Of a stretch of 64,000 nucleotides of DNA, positions 33,010-59,389 are shown in pieces. Location of the stretch: positions 1-64,000 of the forward strand of contig PGYL01000001.1 in the NCBI GenBank assembly GCA_002839645.1. The letters run 5' to 3'. Each line of letters opens with the position of its first letter. The stretch's first letter is position 1. Below the pieces are notes generated by a model, which was given only the letters and a program-made list of their open reading frames with translations, did no database searches and had not been told where the DNA came from. Origin of the DNA: Methanomicrobiales archaeon HGW-Methanomicrobiales-2 (GTDB lineage Archaea > Halobacteriota > Methanomicrobia > Methanomicrobiales > Methanoculleaceae). The translations under genes were made by a program, and so were the position numbers.

Positions 33010-34020
33010 ATGCCACAGGAGTCGGGAGTATCCCCCGGCGGACCGTTCCTCTCTCCGGGATGCGTCCTCTGCCACCAGGGAGCAAAGATGGTCCTCTTCG
33101 TGACCGGCCGGTGTCACCGCACCTGCTGGTACTGCCCGCTCTCGTATGAGCGGAAAGGCCGGGACGTAGTGTTTGCAAATGAACGGAAAGTCTCGTCGCC
33201 GTCCGAGGCCATCGAAGTGGCGGAGAGCATGAGCGCTCTGGGGACCGGGGTCACCGGCGGCGAACCGCTGATCGAACTCGACCGGGTGGTGGAATACTGC
33301 AGGGCTCTCAAGGAGCACTTCGGCCCGGACCACCAGATCCACCTCTACACCGGCCTTGCGCCCAACGAGGCCATGCTCCGCCGCCTCCAGGGGCTGGTCG
33401 ACGAGATCAGGCTGCACCCGCCTCATGAGTCGTGGCCATGCATCCTCGAGACCGACTTCGCCCGCTCGGCCGTCCTCGCCCGGAACATGGGCTTTCTGAT
33501 CGGCATCGAGGTGCCGGCCCTCCCGGGAATCGAGGACCTTGCCGCTGCCCTCCCGCTCCTCGACTTCCTCAATATCAACGAACTGGAGTGGGGGGAGACC
33601 TGCGCCGCCGCCATGCGCGAACGCGGGCTCGAACCCGAGGACGGGCTGCATAATGCCGTGCTGGGCGCCCGCCAGTGGGCGGAGAAACTCTCTCTCGACC
33701 ACAAAGTGCACTTCTGCTCGTCGGTCTTCAAGGACTCGGTTCAGCTACGGGAACGCTTAAAGCGGATCGCTGCAAACACTGCGCGTCCGTTTGAAGAGGT
33801 GACGGATGACGGGACGGTTGTGTACGGGGTGCTTGAGGCGACAGGCCCCATCGACGATCTCCTGGAGAGCCTCGATGAGGACGATTACGTGGTCTGCGAA
33901 GGAAGGGTCGAGATGGCGTGGTGGGTGCTTACCGATCACGGTGCCGGGCTGCCGGGCAAGAAATACGTCGTCGAGCGCTACCCCAACGGGGGCATGGTGG
34001 TCGAGGTGACGCCGCTCTGA
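33010..34020 (+). CDS. Archaeal radical SAM protein (COG2108-like)
   Basis: A 336-residue radical SAM enzyme. The cluster motif is C35-X3-C39-X2-C42 (RCHRTCWYC), preceded by a SPGCVLCHQG pair (C18, C21) that could bind an extra metal, and followed by GVTGGEPLIELDR. The substrate is unknown. Its stop overlaps the cis-prenyltransferase start by one base (TGATG), so the two genes are translationally coupled. Confidence 0.88.
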   Translation: MPQESGVSPGGPFLSPGCVLCHQGAKMVLFVTGRCHRTCWYCPLSYERKGRDVVFANERKVSSPSEAIEVAESMSALGTGVTGGEPLIELDRVVEYCRALKEHFGPDHQIHLYTGLAPNEAMLRRLQGLVDEIRLHPPHESWPCILETDFARSAVLARNMGFLIGIEVPALPGIEDLAAALPLLDFLNINELEWGETCAAAMRERGLEPEDGLHNAVLGARQWAEKLSLDHKVHFCSSVFKDSVQLRERLKRIAANTARPFEEVTDDGTVVYGVLEATGPIDDLLESLDEDDYVVCEGRVEMAWWVLTDHGAGLPGKKYVVERYPNGGMVVEVTPL

Positions 34021-34799
34021 TGCTCCGATCAAGGCTTGAGCCCCTCTACGAGCGTTTCCTGCAGTGGCAGGTGAAGCACATCCCCCGGCACGTAGCGGTG
34101 ATCCAGGACGGAAACCGCCGGTTTGCCCGGGAGCAGGGGCTTGATACGGCACTCGGGCACCGGCTCGGGGCGGATGCCACGGAGCAGGTCCTCGACTGGG
34201 CATGCGAACTCGGTGTGCGGCATATCACGCTCTACACCTTCTCCACCGAGAACTTCAGGAGAAACAAGGACGAGCTCGCGTCGCTCTTTGCGCTCTTTCA
34301 GGAGAAGTTTCTCGCGATCCTGACCGACGAGCGGGTGCACAAAAATCATATTCGGGTGCAGATGATCGGCGACCGGTCCCTCCTCCCCGACGACCTCCTG
34401 GAGACGATCGAAGCGGCGGAGAAAGCGACACTGCACTACACCAACTACTACCTCAATATCGCGCTTGCCTATGGTGGCCGCAACGAGATCGTGCATGCCG
34501 CCCGGTTGATCCTCGGCGAGGTAAAACACGGCACTCTCGACCCCGGGACCATCAGCACCACGACCGTCGAGAGCCACCTCAACCGGGGCGCGCCCATACC
34601 CCCCGTCGACCTGATCATCCGCACCGGCAACGACTGCCGGACATCCAACTTCCTCCCCTGGCTCGCGAACGGCCACGAGTCGGCCGTCTACTTCTGCGCT
34701 CCCTACTGGCCGGCGTTCCGGAGGATCGATCTCCTCCGGGCGATGCGCGTCTATGACCAGCGCATGCTTCTCAAGGAGCGTGCAGGCCGGCGTTCCTGA
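34020..34799 (+). CDS. uppS: cis-Prenyltransferase (UPPS-like), catalytic-type subunit
   Basis: A 259-residue cis-prenyltransferase. The catalytic motif I is HVAVIQDGNRRFAREQG (Asp of the (M)DGNxR loop present), followed by ITLYTFSTENFRR (motif III) and LIIRTGNDCRTSNFLPW (motif V). These enzymes build the polyprenyl carriers for glycosylation or other envelope work. The C-terminus reads YDQRMLLKERAGRRS and lacks the usual RxG tail, and motif V is atypical. This pattern matches catalytic subunits of heteromeric cis-PTs (DHDDS type), with the partner in the next gene. Confidence 0.88.
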   Translation: MLRSRLEPLYERFLQWQVKHIPRHVAVIQDGNRRFAREQGLDTALGHRLGADATEQVLDWACELGVRHITLYTFSTENFRRNKDELASLFALFQEKFLAILTDERVHKNHIRVQMIGDRSLLPDDLLETIEAAEKATLHYTNYYLNIALAYGGRNEIVHAARLILGEVKHGTLDPGTISTTTVESHLNRGAPIPPVDLIIRTGNDCRTSNFLPWLANGHESAVYFCAPYWPAFRRIDLLRAMRVYDQRMLLKERAGRRS

Positions 34800-34802
34800 C
34801 GG

Positions 34803-35393
34803 TCACCGCCCGAAACGGCGTGCCCGGGACTGGAAATCCCGGAGTGCCCGGAGAAAATCCACTTTTCTGAGCAGAGCCCAGTTGACGTCGAGAAAGAAGA
34901 GTTCGGAGTAGACCGATTGCCAGATGAGGAAGTCGGTCAGGTGGTCGCCGCCGGTCTTGATGACGAGGTCGGGCTCGTAGTTGAAGGTGAGGTACGACTC
35001 CAGCAGGTCTTCGTCGACCAGCGCCGGGTCGACGCCGTCTTCGGCCATCCTTCTCACGCAGCCGGCAATCTCCTCACGGCCGCTCTTCCCGATAGCCACC
35101 GTCACGTCCATACCTTCCCCGCTGACCTCCTTTTCGTCCCGGTAGTGCAGGGTCAGGCGTGCGATCGACGATATTTGGCGGAGCAGCGGGAGGCACCGTT
35201 CCAGCCGGGCCGGATCGGCGGTGCTGATATGGAACATGGCACTGGCGATCCCGAGGTCGCGGCACCACTGGGCGGCAAGGTAGAGGTTGCCCGGGGCGTC
35301 GAGCATATCCTGCTCGGTGATCATGAAACAGATGTGTTCCGGGAGGGTGGAGAGGTCCCGGAGGAGGATCTTTTCGTAGAGGCGGTAGATCAC
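34803..35393 (-). CDS. cis-Prenyltransferase homologue lacking motif I (NgBR/Nus1-type)
   Basis: A 196-residue cis-prenyltransferase fold protein. The C-terminus has DLVIKTGGDHLTDFLIWQSVYSELFF, FLRALRDFQSRARRFG and a terminal RxG-type tail, but the N-terminal motif I Asp-Gly-Asn is replaced by LPEHICFMITEQDML, so it is unlikely to be catalytic alone. In eukaryotes NgBR/NUS1 is such a partner, and heteromeric archaeal enzymes have been described. GTG 35393 overlaps the polX stop by 4 bp and has GGAG upstream. An ATG at 35453 would extend it into polX. It converges on uppS with a 3-bp gap. Confidence 0.82.
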   Translation of the reverse strand: MIYRLYEKILLRDLSTLPEHICFMITEQDMLDAPGNLYLAAQWCRDLGIASAMFHISTADPARLERCLPLLRQISSIARLTLHYRDEKEVSGEGMDVTVAIGKSGREEIAGCVRRMAEDGVDPALVDEDLLESYLTFNYEPDLVIKTGGDHLTDFLIWQSVYSELFFLDVNWALLRKVDFLRALRDFQSRARRFGR

Positions 35394-37048
35394 GACCGCC
35401 ACTCCAGCAACCCGGATAGAGGAAGGGTATTCAATATATCGTCCGGGGTGCACCAGCCCCGGCGTGCCAGCATGATACCGTAGCGCATATTTGCAAATTC
35501 GCCGTTCCTGTGGGCATCTGTCCCTGCAGCCAGTTTCACTCCTTTCTTCTTCGCATGCCAGATATAAATATCCTCAAGGTCGAGCCGGTGAGGCGACGCG
35601 TTGATCTCAAGGGCGGTTCCCGTCACCGCGGCGTGGTCGATCACCCGGAGAAGGTCGATTGCGTACGGCGGTCTGCGGCTGAGAAGCCGCCCGGTGGGAT
35701 GGCCGATGATATCAACGTGCTCGTTCTCCATCGCGGTGAGGACGCGCCGGGTCAGGAGATCCTGGTCCTGGGCGAACCCCGAATGGACCGATGCGATCAC
35801 CAGGTCGAGGTCGGCGAGAACCCGGTTAGGGTAGCCGAGCGTGCCGTCGCTCTTGATATCCACCTCGCTCCCGGCGAGGAGCTGGCAGGCGTGCCGGCGG
35901 TTGGTCCGCTCGATCTCGGTCTGCTGTTTTTTGAGGGCATCCGGGGTCACCCGCGAGGAGTGGTCGGTGACCACGACGTACTCGTAGCCCCGGGCGTCTC
36001 CTGCCTCCGCGACGTCCTCGATCGACTGGTGGCCGTCGCTCCAGGTTGTGTGAGCGTGAAGGTCTCCCCGCACGTCGCGAAGGTCGACCAGGTCGGGGAG
36101 GGCGTGGTGGAGGGCGAGTTCGATCTCGCCCCGGTCCTCGCGCAACTCCGGCGGGACTGCCGCCATCCCGAGGAATGAAAAGACCTCCTCCTCGCTCCCG
36201 AACGTCTGCAGGCGGCCGCTTGCAGTCTCCACGAGGCCTTCGGGTTCAAGCCGGTAGCCCTGTTCCAGCGCCACCTCGCCGAGGCGGGCCAGAAACCCCC
36301 GGGAGCCTGTGGCGCAGAGGAGCGCGGTCCCGCACCGGCCGGGCTCGGTGAACCGGATCTTCAGGTCGGCACCGCCGAGCGTGAGCGAGACCACTTCGGC
36401 GCTTTCATCGGCAACCCCGAGGCTGCAATCCCCGGTAGCGACGATCTCAATCCTGCCGACGGTGCTTGTTCCCCGCCGGTAACTCCCTGCAACCGCATAC
36501 TGCCCATCAGGGAAGAGCGTCGCCACGCTCGCGAGCACGGCGTCGGCCTGCGGGCGGGTCATCCGGTTCGACCTCTGGCGGAACTGCCTGATGCCTCGCT
36601 CGATCGTCTCCTCCTTCTTTGCCCCGAACCCCGGGAGTGCCCTGAGCCGGTGCCCCTTCACCGCCTGCTCGAGATCCTCTACGGTCAGGATGCCGAGTCT
36701 CTTCCAGAGGGTGTGCAGGGTCTTCGGCCCCACACCGGCAACGCCGAGGAGTTCGACGATCGACCCGGGGATGGTTGCCTGCAGACTTTCGAGTTCCCCA
36801 AACGTCCCGGTAGCGGCGATCTCGTGGATCTGCCCGGCTATCCGGACACCTATGCCCGGGATGCGGGTGAGTTCCTCCTCAGTGAGTTTCGCAACCGGGA
36901 AGGAGAGCCGCTCGACCTGCCGTGCCGCCCGCTCGTAAGCCCCGGTCCGGTACCGGTCATCTCCCGCGATCTCGAGCAGACGGCCCATGAACGCGAGCCG
37001 TTCGGCAACGTCGGCGTTCGTGATCTGCCGCTCCGGGGTCGTCCCCAT
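35390..37048 (-). CDS. polX: PolX-family protein with altered polymerase catalytic site, intact PHP domain
   Basis: A 552-residue family X polymerase: helix-hairpin-helix motif (IPGIGVRIAGQIHEI), polymerase palm, then C-terminal PHP phosphoesterase. The palm motif that should read GDxDxL is VGRIEIV (R199, E201), i.e. two metal Asp are replaced. The PHP motifs are intact: DLHAHTTWSDG, TDHS, GSEVDI, SVHSGF, GHPTG, GTDAH. It may keep the 3'-5' exonuclease or AP-site activity but probably not polymerisation. A second, complete copy is at 57656. ATG 37048 is one of two close candidates. Confidence 0.85.
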   Translation of the reverse strand: MGTTPERQITNADVAERLAFMGRLLEIAGDDRYRTGAYERAARQVERLSFPVAKLTEEELTRIPGIGVRIAGQIHEIAATGTFGELESLQATIPGSIVELLGVAGVGPKTLHTLWKRLGILTVEDLEQAVKGHRLRALPGFGAKKEETIERGIRQFRQRSNRMTRPQADAVLASVATLFPDGQYAVAGSYRRGTSTVGRIEIVATGDCSLGVADESAEVVSLTLGGADLKIRFTEPGRCGTALLCATGSRGFLARLGEVALEQGYRLEPEGLVETASGRLQTFGSEEEVFSFLGMAAVPPELREDRGEIELALHHALPDLVDLRDVRGDLHAHTTWSDGHQSIEDVAEAGDARGYEYVVVTDHSSRVTPDALKKQQTEIERTNRRHACQLLAGSEVDIKSDGTLGYPNRVLADLDLVIASVHSGFAQDQDLLTRRVLTAMENEHVDIIGHPTGRLLSRRPPYAIDLLRVIDHAAVTGTALEINASPHRLDLEDIYIWHAKKKGVKLAAGTDAHRNGEFANMRYGIMLARRGWCTPDDILNTLPLSGLLEWRS

Positions 37049-37173
37049 GATCATCGATCGTCCGTGAAACCATATAGACATTAACGCTTCGCCCCGGGCC
37101 GCCCACAATCCTCGCCACCGGGTGGCGGAACCCGCTCCTGATCGGGCTCCCTCCCGATGGTACTACCCAAATC

Positions 37174-55911: not shown

Positions 55912-57651
55912 GTGAAATTTGCAACCCTCACCGCCTGTTTTGAGAGGCTCGAAGCGACATCGTCCCAAAACGAGATGACCACGCTTCTCGCCCGGCTGCT
56001 CGCCGCGGCAACGCCGGACGAGATCGGGATCGTCTGCTACGTTGTGCTCGGAGCGATTGGTCCCGGCTACAGCGACGTAAACCTGGGCATCGGGGACCGG
56101 ACCACGGCGGCGGCGATCGCCCTTGCGGCCGGCACCGATCCTGCCCCGGTCGAGGCGGCGGCGCGGGAACTCGGCGACTACGGCGACGTCGCCGTCCGGC
56201 TGATCGCGACCCCCGCCACGGGGCCGCTCCCGGTCGCCGACGTCCACCGCGGCCTCGTCGAGATCGCCGGGGCATCCGGCCCGGGCTCGGTCGAAGTGAA
56301 GAAGAACGCCCTCGCGGCTCTCCTCACCGCCGCCACGCCCCCGGAGCGGCGTTACCTCTCGCGGCTTGCCGCGGGGGAGATGCGGCTCGGCGTCGGGGAG
56401 ATGACCCTCCTCGATGCGCTGGCGGAGGCGTTCCTGGGGTCGAAGGCAGAGCGCCCGGCCCTTGAACATGCCTACAACATCTCCTCCGATATCGGTCTCG
56501 TGGCCCGGATGCTTCTCGAGGAGGGCCTCCCCGGGGTGCAGGCGATCGCCGTCACCCTGCACCGCCCCATCCGGCCGATGCTCACCCAGCGGGTCGCCCG
56601 GATATCGGAGATCCTCGAACGGATCGGCTCTCCCGTCATCGCTGTCGAGGAGAAGTACGACGGCGAACGGATCCAGGCGCACAAGGACGGCGACGACGTC
56701 ACCCTCTTTTCGCGGCGGCTGACCGACGTCACCGGCCAGTACCCCGATATCGTCCGGCACGTCCGGCGCTCTATTAGCGTCGATACGGCGATCCTCGACG
56801 GCGAGGCGGTCGCGTTCGACCATGCGACCGGGACCTACCGGCCCTTCCAGACGCTGATGCGGCGGCGCCGGAAGCACCGGGTCAGCGAAGTCGCCGATGA
56901 GGTCCCGGCGACCTACCGGGCCTTCGACCTCCTCTATGCCGACGGCGAATCATACCTCTGCCGGAGTTACCCCGACCGGCGGGCGAGGCTCGAGGAGATC
57001 CTCGTCGGGGACGAGCACATATCTCCGGCGGGCCGCATCGTAACGGGGGATGCCGACGGGATCACGGCGTTCTATCTCTCCTGCATCGAGCGGGGACTTG
57101 AAGGGATCGTCTGCAAGTCGTGTGCAGAGGACTCGTTCTACCGGGCGGGGGCGCGGGAGTGGCAGTGGATCAAGTGGAAGAGCGATTACGCCCCCGGGAT
57201 CTCCGATACGCTCGATCTGGTCGTCATCGGCGCCAGCGCCGGGCGGGGGAAGCGGGCCGGGACCTACGGCTCGGTCCTCTGTGCCGCCTATAACCACGAG
57301 GAAGACCTCTTCCAGACGGTCTGCGGCATGGGGACGGGGTTCTCGGACGTTGACCTCGCGGACCTTCCCCGCCGGCTCGCCGGCGCGAGGGTGGACCGGC
57401 AGCCGGCGCGGGCGATGGTGAACCCGCAGGCGGCACCCGACTTCTGGTTTGAGCCGCGCTATGTCGTGGAGGTGCTGGGGCTCGAGATCACCCAGAGCCC
57501 GGTCCACACCTGCAACTGGGACCCGGAGCGGCGGCGTGGCCTCGCCCTCCGGTTCCCGCGGTTCGTCCGGTGGCGGGACGAGAAGGGTCCTGAAGAGGCG
57601 ACGACGGCCGCCGAGATCGCGGCCATCTTCCGCCGCCGGTGGGGGGTGTAA
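55912..57651 (+). CDS. lig: ATP-dependent DNA ligase
   Basis: A 579-residue archaeal DNA ligase. The first ~200 residues are the DNA-binding domain (FATLTACFERLEATSSQNEMTTLLARLL; AAGEMRLGVGEMTLLDAL), then motif I EEKYDGERIQAHK with the adenylated Lys, LDGEAVAF (III), GLEGIVCKS (IV) and WIKWKSDY (V), and an OB fold. The GTG start at 55912 gives the usual MKFATLTACFERLE N-terminus; earlier in-frame starts would add unrelated residues. It lies 4 bp upstream of a complete PolX. Confidence 0.93.
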   Translation: MKFATLTACFERLEATSSQNEMTTLLARLLAAATPDEIGIVCYVVLGAIGPGYSDVNLGIGDRTTAAAIALAAGTDPAPVEAAARELGDYGDVAVRLIATPATGPLPVADVHRGLVEIAGASGPGSVEVKKNALAALLTAATPPERRYLSRLAAGEMRLGVGEMTLLDALAEAFLGSKAERPALEHAYNISSDIGLVARMLLEEGLPGVQAIAVTLHRPIRPMLTQRVARISEILERIGSPVIAVEEKYDGERIQAHKDGDDVTLFSRRLTDVTGQYPDIVRHVRRSISVDTAILDGEAVAFDHATGTYRPFQTLMRRRRKHRVSEVADEVPATYRAFDLLYADGESYLCRSYPDRRARLEEILVGDEHISPAGRIVTGDADGITAFYLSCIERGLEGIVCKSCAEDSFYRAGAREWQWIKWKSDYAPGISDTLDLVVIGASAGRGKRAGTYGSVLCAAYNHEEDLFQTVCGMGTGFSDVDLADLPRRLAGARVDRQPARAMVNPQAAPDFWFEPRYVVEVLGLEITQSPVHTCNWDPERRRGLALRFPRFVRWRDEKGPEEATTAAEIAAIFRRRWGV

Positions 57652-57655
57652 CGGT

Positions 57656-59389
57656 ATGGAGCAGTACTCACGGTTGACCAACATCGAGGTCGCGGCGATC
57701 CTCTACGAGGTCGCCGACCTCCTCGAGATCAAGGGCGTCCGGTTCAAGCCGCAGGCATACCGGCGGGCGGCGCAGGCGATCGAGACCTTGCCGGAGGATA
57801 TCGGCATCATTGCAAAGGAAGGAGACCTCGATGAGGTCCCCGGGGTCGGCAGGGGTATCGCCGGAAAGATCCAGGAGATCGTCGAGACCGGCAGCCTCGC
57901 GTATCTCGCTTCCTTACGCGAGGAACTCCCGGAGGGCGTGCAGCACCTGACCGGGATCGAGGGGATCGGGCCGAAGAAGGCGATCGCGCTCTCCCGGGAA
58001 CTCGGTATCCGGACCGTCGACGACCTGGAGGCGGCGGCGTTGGCCGGCCGGATCCGCGACCTCCCTGGATTTGGGGAGAAGACCGAAGCGAACATCCTTG
58101 CGAGCATCCAGGTGAGCCGGACGGCAAAAGAGCGCCGGCTCCTCGGCTACATCCTGCCCGTCGCCCGGGATATCGAACGGCAGCTCGCGTCGCTCCCCTC
58201 TGTCGGGCAGGTGAGCCTCGCCGGATCGATACGCCGCAGAAAAGAGACGATCGGGGATGTCGACATCCTTGCGACCTCCTCGCGCCCTGAGGAGGTGATG
58301 GAGGTCTTTGCCACCCTCCCCGGGGTCTCGCGGGTCCTCGTCCGGGGGACGACGAAGACCTCGGTGGTGCTCGCGACCGGCATCCAGGTCGACCTCCGGG
58401 TGGTGGAGGACGTCCACTTCGGGGCCGCTCTCCAGTACTTCACCGGGTCAAAGGAGCACAACATCGCGCTCAGGAAACTCGCCATCGCGAGGAACTGGCG
58501 GTTGAACGAGTACGGGCTCCTCGACCTCGCAAGCGGCCGGGCGGTCGCCGGCGAGGACGAGGCGGGGGTCTACCGGGCCCTCGATCTCGCCTGGATCGAG
58601 CCGGAACTCAGGGAGGACCGCGGCGAGCTTGAGGCCGCACGGGCCGGGACCCTGCCCGACCTCGTCAGCTACGACTCGATCCGGGGCGACCTCCACGTCC
58701 ATACCCGCTGGAGCGAAGGCGCCCACTCCATCGAGGAGATGGCGGCGGCGGCGCAGGCGCTCGGCTACGAGTACATCGCCATCTGCGACCACGCAGAGAC
58801 CCTCCACATCGCCCACGGCCTCTCCCCAAAACGCCTGGCCGACCAGGTGCGTGAGATCGAGCGGATCAACCGGGCGGCTGAAGGCGACTTCACCGTCCTC
58901 TCCGGGACCGAGTGCAACATCGGCATGGACGGCACGATCGACCTCCCCGACAGCATCCTTGCCGACCTCGACGTGGTGGTCGCGAGCGTCCACTCCGGGT
59001 TCAAGCAGCCCGAGGGGGAGATGACGGAGCGGGTCATCACGGCGATGGGAAGCGAGCACGTCGATATCATCGGCCACCCGACGGGACGGATTCTTCTTGC
59101 GCGGGAGCCGTACCGGATCGATCTCGCTGCGGTCTTTGATGCCGCAGCAGCGCTCGGCACCCTGATGGAGATCAACGCGTTCCCGGGCAGGCTGGACCTC
59201 TCCGACGTCAACGCCCGTTCGGCCCGCGAGCATAACGTCCGGTTCTCGCTTGGTTCGGACGCGCACAACCGGGAGAACCTCCGGTACATGGAGTTCGGGG
59301 TCGCGACCGCCCGGCGGGGGTGGCTTACGCCGGACGATATCGTCAACACCCGCCCGCTTTCGGAGTTACCGGGGTTACTGAGGTCTTAG
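57656..59389 (+). CDS. polX: DNA polymerase X with intact palm and PHP domain
   Basis: A 577-residue family X polymerase: helix-hairpin-helix (VPGVGRGIAGKIQEI, IEGIGPKKAIALS), palm with SLAGSIRRRKETIGDVDIL (both metal Asp) and QVDLRVV (third Asp), then PHP with DLHVHTRWSEG, CDHAE, GTECNIG, SVHSG, GHPTGRI and SDAHN. All expected catalytic residues are visible, so both gap-filling and nuclease activities are predicted. With the ligase immediately upstream it makes a compact fill-and-seal repair pair, like PolX-ligase modules in base excision repair. Confidence 0.93.
   Translation: MEQYSRLTNIEVAAILYEVADLLEIKGVRFKPQAYRRAAQAIETLPEDIGIIAKEGDLDEVPGVGRGIAGKIQEIVETGSLAYLASLREELPEGVQHLTGIEGIGPKKAIALSRELGIRTVDDLEAAALAGRIRDLPGFGEKTEANILASIQVSRTAKERRLLGYILPVARDIERQLASLPSVGQVSLAGSIRRRKETIGDVDILATSSRPEEVMEVFATLPGVSRVLVRGTTKTSVVLATGIQVDLRVVEDVHFGAALQYFTGSKEHNIALRKLAIARNWRLNEYGLLDLASGRAVAGEDEAGVYRALDLAWIEPELREDRGELEAARAGTLPDLVSYDSIRGDLHVHTRWSEGAHSIEEMAAAAQALGYEYIAICDHAETLHIAHGLSPKRLADQVREIERINRAAEGDFTVLSGTECNIGMDGTIDLPDSILADLDVVVASVHSGFKQPEGEMTERVITAMGSEHVDIIGHPTGRILLAREPYRIDLAAVFDAAAALGTLMEINAFPGRLDLSDVNARSAREHNVRFSLGSDAHNRENLRYMEFGVATARRGWLTPDDIVNTRPLSELPGLLRS

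Follow-up and report, generated by a model that had tools for sequence, protein, structure and literature searches.

Two convergent genes of the archaeal DNA analysed here (a stretch of 64,000 nucleotides, referred to as the window) very probably specify the two subunits of a single heteromeric cis-prenyltransferase (cPT), which, judging from sequence, would synthesize the polyprenyl diphosphate of a glycosyl carrier. The predicted catalytic, DHDDS-like subunit (34020..34799, plus strand, 259 aa) contains motif I, VIQDGNRRFA, and has no aligned RxG tail. The predicted non-catalytic, NgBR-like subunit (34803..35393, minus strand, 196 aa from a GTG codon) has no motif I and carries RRFGR at its C-terminus. 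A spacer of 3 bp (34800..34802) separates the two stop codons (34797-34799 and 34803-34805). A sequence-only reading of this DNA had described this gap and had coupled one gene to a radical SAM gene and the other to polX; the coordinates and frames were confirmed, and start/stop overlaps were found at both junctions. On the plus strand, the stop codon (34018-34020) of a radical SAM protein with a CxxxCxxC motif (33010..34020) shares one base with the ATG at 34020. On the minus strand, the GTG (35393-35391) overlaps by two bases the stop codon (35392-35390) of a PolX-type protein with a PHP domain (35390..37108). Position 35393 is the likely start of the minus-strand gene because its relative L016 has the first possible start there, an ATG directly after a stop codon.

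A whole-genome domain search located PF01255 (cPT) genes of the 99.5% complete genome at these two places only, and therefore neither protein has a spare homodimeric partner. The window comes from a Methanoculleus-like archaeon: the contigs with the nearest named relatives of the NgBR-like protein are for the most part from Methanoculleus (85-96% identity). The dolichol pathway needs STT3/AglB and trans-prenyl synthase genes, and this genome carries an STT3/AglB gene as well as two genes of the trans-prenyl synthase type.

The residue comparison was based on an alignment of the distinct catalytic- and partner-type proteins of the fetched loci with nine bacterial and three MM_0014-type enzymes, in which E. 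coli UppS served as the reference and provided the numbering. Three copies of the window (L001, L002 and L081) were removed before counting, and rows containing X as well as the cut L014 partner were left out of the alignment picks. The roles assigned to single UppS-numbered residues, RxG excepted, are assumed here.

The plus-strand protein matches PF01255 with 222 bits over profile positions 1-214 (cut-off 27), reads ...VIQDGNRRFA... and ends in QRMLLKERAGRRS. All active-site residues checked are present, and the RxG tail is not aligned. DGNRR occurs in 121 of the 122 distinct catalytic-type relatives from the source phylum; the exception without DGN, L077, is cut at its N-end and was kept in the count. 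D26, G27, N28 and R30 are conserved in 121 of these proteins, H43 in 118, E213 in 115, and N74, R77, R194 and R200 in all 122. The possibility of an RxG in the catalytic subunit was considered, with a bare R-x-G found in 20 of the 122 proteins, within 15 residues of the C-terminus. The window protein is one of them: an isolated R-A-G lies a few residues beyond the usual RxG place, out of alignment with RxG and not conserved in close relatives. This candidate was rejected because R[RK]xG terminates none of the 122 proteins and no RxG motif appears in the aligned columns. Sequence and alignment thus agree with the earlier claim that the plus-strand gene keeps motif I and lacks the C-terminal RxG. 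The catalytic type also carries an insertion after the E213 equivalent, which presumably adjoins the dimer interface. Two residues are inserted in 119 of the 122 proteins, including the window protein, and one residue in three; no such insertion was found in the 133 other rows (121 partners, nine bacterial and three MM_0014-type enzymes). Our guess is that it might act against self-pairing.

The minus-strand protein matches PF01255 with 82 bits and over profile positions 107-219 only (cut-off 27). It reads ...PEHICFMITEQDM... where motif I is expected and terminates in SRARRFGR, having lost motif I and other catalytic positions and retained the RRFG tail. DGN was found in none of the 121 distinct partner-type relatives from the source phylum, and all 121 have a C-terminal R[RK]xG. 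R241 and G244 are invariant among these partners and R242 is present in 120, residues that do not form a motif in the catalytic type. At the D26 position most partners have T or S and six have D, and the H43 and R77 positions are deleted in nearly all of them; N28, R30 and N74 are likewise replaced or deleted in the majority. At the R194 position 92 partners have K and 26 have R, at the R200 position 65 have H and 31 have R, and E213 is present in all 121. The description of the minus-strand gene as one without motif I that keeps the C-terminal half and the RRFGR tail is therefore borne out by the sequence and by the alignment of partners. Two partners of family f15 (L172 and L173) are very short and divergent, with frames of 168 and 164 aa, and still end in RRFG.

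Chance or an annotation artefact as the source of this complementary split is ruled out, because the same split recurs among distinct relatives, 121-122 per type. In a tree of 84 rows, from which rows with fewer than 130 filled columns and near-duplicates had been dropped, the catalytic proteins form one clade (99/96), as do the partners (100/100). Both clades hold rows from many families of the source phylum, which indicates that the split predates the divergence of those families and thus the radiation of the phylum. Actinobacterial Rv1086-type enzymes branch beside the partner clade (99/88), and a tree constrained to join the catalytic and partner types was not rejected (p-AU 0.29); the two types may have arisen by one duplication.

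PF01255 is present in 116 of 120 genomes of the source order, nearly all with two matches. Across the source phylum, the partner profile (A1) matches 388 of 391 genomes. The match is partner-grade (E below 1e-28) in 382 and, as read from the table, only weaker in six; in three of these six (G128, G137 and G394) PF01255 nevertheless detects a partner that is short or divergent. A sample of 55 phylum genomes, chosen to cover the families, contained 52 with PF01255. In 50 of these 52 each type is present once, as a catalytic type of full length and a partner that matches half of the profile; G192 and G227 have the catalytic type and no partner by PF01255 in this sample. Neither PF01255 nor the partner profile matched in three genomes of family f12 (G125, G134 and G143; 86-91% completeness), in which the cis-prenyltransferase is either absent or very divergent. 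A third, unusual PF01255 protein, with DGHRR for DGNRR, lies beside the normal pair in genome G135 (L185). A catalytic-type cPT gene (L195), found with the catalytic query, is located on the Methanohalobium evestigatum plasmid pMETEV01. When plasmid and phage records were searched with the NgBR-like protein, no NgBR-like gene was found among the matches listed (30 of 99 and 20 of 20), which were mainly bacterial UppS halves.

The gene order is conserved as well. With partner rows taken only from genomes at least 85% complete, both genes lie on one contig in 83 of the 85 source-order genomes with both matches listed. The 83 same-contig pairs comprise 80 convergent, two same-strand and one divergent arrangement, and 46 of them are within 100 bp; relatives in the source order thus keep the genes together, a question that the sequence-only reading had raised. 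In other orders, 19 of 49 genomes with both types have the two genes within ~11 kb, and 18 of these 19 pairs are convergent. Given the convergent order in the source order and in these close pairs elsewhere, the arrangement looks ancestral and appears to have been lost in Methanosarcina-like and other genomes. Large distances between the two genes, or their placement on separate contigs, occur in Methanosarcinaceae and several further families, as might be expected if the NgBR-like protein served another partner or reaction and its adjacency to the catalytic gene were incidental. We consider this very improbable, since the co-occurrence of the two types in the sample of 52 genomes with PF01255 is near-perfect, convergent adjacency is conserved across the source order, and the genome of the window offers no other cPT with which the NgBR-like protein could pair.

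Both predicted single-chain folds are cPT folds. The model of the catalytic subunit has a mean pLDDT of 78.6, with values below 50 for residues 205-219, which lie before and around the insertion; its best cPT match has a Z of 24.2 and human DHDDS a Z of 24.1, Z differences below 1 being treated as ties throughout. The partner model (mean pLDDT 85.8) matches cPT structures with Z up to 14.9, including human DHDDS (7pb1_A, Z 13.9) and human NgBR (6z1n_B, Z 13.2, rmsd 4.7, 175 aligned residues). These predicted folds and the residue-by-residue alignment across the phylum agree with the DHDDS/NgBR-like division of labour that had been proposed from the window alone.

In the proposed mechanism, the plus-strand protein would bind the allylic diphosphate and IPP and perform chain elongation, and the minus-strand protein would be a catalytically dead paralogue that dimerizes with it. 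The C-terminal R-x-G tail of the partner would reach over the interface into the active site of the catalytic subunit, where it would replace the tail that the twin subunit supplies in the homodimeric enzyme. The product, of presumed nature and length, would be the polyprenyl diphosphate precursor of a dolichol-type sugar carrier. Complex formation, activity and tail insertion are what we infer for this pair. Related chemistry is described in the literature. In homodimeric enzymes, the RXG arginine coordinates Mg2+ through water, and in some of their structures the RXG glycine nitrogen contacts the phosphate of the acceptor (PMC8131916). For the human enzyme, the tail of NgBR is described as extending over the interface and into the site of DHDDS (PMC7573591).

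PMC8131916 also reports that MM_0618 and MM_1083 of Methanosarcina mazei form a heteromeric cPT with C45-50 products, likely for a glycosyl carrier lipid, and cites Emi et al. 2019 as the original report; the mention of reported heteromeric cPTs of Methanosarcina in the sequence-only reading was therefore correct. The window pair is, we infer, orthologous to MM_0618/MM_1083, with the locus tags matched by elimination and not by sequence. This assignment follows from genome G384, in which one of three cPTs aligns almost without differences to MA1831 of Methanosarcina acetivorans (7vq9) over 223 residues; the other two are a single catalytic type and a single partner, both falling inside the two clades.

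The lack of RxG is by itself no proof of a need for a partner, because MM_0014 and its relatives are reported to work as homodimers without RXG (PMC8131916). The 34020 protein could act alone in the same way, with the partner as a regulator or a relic. This explanation is improbable. The catalytic type lacks the TLGG tail, and in the tree the three MM_0014-type rows are set apart in a distant clade of their own. The retention of RxG in every aligned partner, while catalytic residues were lost, is not expected of a relic, nor is the partner-grade match in nearly all genomes of the phylum in keeping with this alternative. Moreover, the corresponding paralogues of M. mazei are those reported to form a heteromer. 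A two-part enzyme completed by the partner tail is hence the preferred explanation.

The radical SAM gene is on the same strand, 82-92 nt before the catalytic domain match, in all 31 sampled genomes; among 30 catalytic loci of other families, 12 likewise have it upstream. Its association with the catalytic gene, to which it is coupled in translation, is tighter than the catalytic-partner adjacency. The radical SAM protein is a possible candidate for an unrecognised step of polyprenol metabolism. On the other side of the pair, the PolX beside the NgBR-like gene has the polymerase motif GRIE instead of GDID. Similar motif losses are seen in most Methanoculleus copies of PolX, and other genera have GDID or GDLD; a second PolX in the window (57422-59386) has kept GDVD.

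Whether the archaeal pair and DHDDS-NgBR stem from one ancient split, an archaeal invention inherited by eukaryotes with the radical SAM protein as a third pathway member, was also considered, and we regard this as rather unlikely. The catalytic profile found human DHDDS as the top PDB match, at 198.2 bits versus 197.5 bits for bacterial enzymes, a difference of less than 1 bit. In a second tree with both human proteins, from which L173, L163 and the L014 partner were dropped, DHDDS joins the archaeal catalytic clade with values (94/92) that are not decisive. On its end branch of 4.76, NgBR is freely movable (AU p 0.30-0.48), with a p-AU of 0.48 when constrained with the archaeal partners and 0.44 when constrained with DHDDS. 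The partner sequence is nearer to homodimeric bacterial cPTs (~87-95 bits) than to human NUS1 (36 bits), and the N-half of the partner profile gives weak scores with both DHDDS (32 bits) and NUS1 (21 bits). If the ancient split were true, a two-part dolichol synthase would still be run here from two tail-to-tail genes.

A heteromeric archaeal cPT is already known from M. mazei; the near phylum-wide generality of the split cPT, the conserved tail-to-tail order and the coupled radical SAM gene are new. A literature search found no study of how heteromeric cPTs are distributed among archaea, most subscription journals being outside its coverage. With these results, one reported heteromer becomes a near phylum-wide rule, and genetically tractable archaea of the phylum should therefore rely, as humans do, on an enzyme made of two parts. 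The archaeal pairs would offer small, soluble models, free of the NgBR membrane anchor, of how the tail of a dead partner completes an active site. The origin of the eukaryotic dolichol synthase becomes a testable question, and the finding directs attention to the coupled radical SAM gene.

Like the split enzyme of animals and fungi, DHDDS-NgBR (Rer2/Srt1-Nus1), the window pair would combine a catalytic subunit that has DGN and no RxG with a partner that has no DGN and a C-terminal RxG. The alignment shows a deletion after motif I common to the archaeal partner and NgBR, which may be of convergent origin. Unlike NgBR, the archaeal partner has no membrane anchor and starts directly at the domain. 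Unlike DHDDS, the catalytic subunit of the window lacks the C-terminal helix-turn-helix, and its chain ends 11 residues past the homology; the catalytic proteins of other families have longer C-terminal tails. Among the aligned rows, human proteins included, the insertion after E213 is restricted to the archaeal catalytic type. As in MM_0618/MM_1083, one catalytic-type and one partner-type PF01255 paralogue are present, and Methanosarcina-like members fall in the same clades. The genes are convergent neighbours here, whereas they are dispersed in the Methanosarcina-like genomes examined, and the genome of the window, unlike M. mazei, has no third, MM_0014-type cPT. The catalytic type of the window resembles the versatile MM_0014/MA1831 cPT in being archaeal, in having DGNRR and in lacking RxG, but the latter is a homodimer with a TLGG tail and belongs to a separate clade. 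The cPT fold and motifs are shared with bacterial homodimeric UppS and with the actinobacterial Z-FPP synthase (Rv1086 type); in these bacterial enzymes motif I and RxG occur in one chain, whereas the window pair carries them on two.
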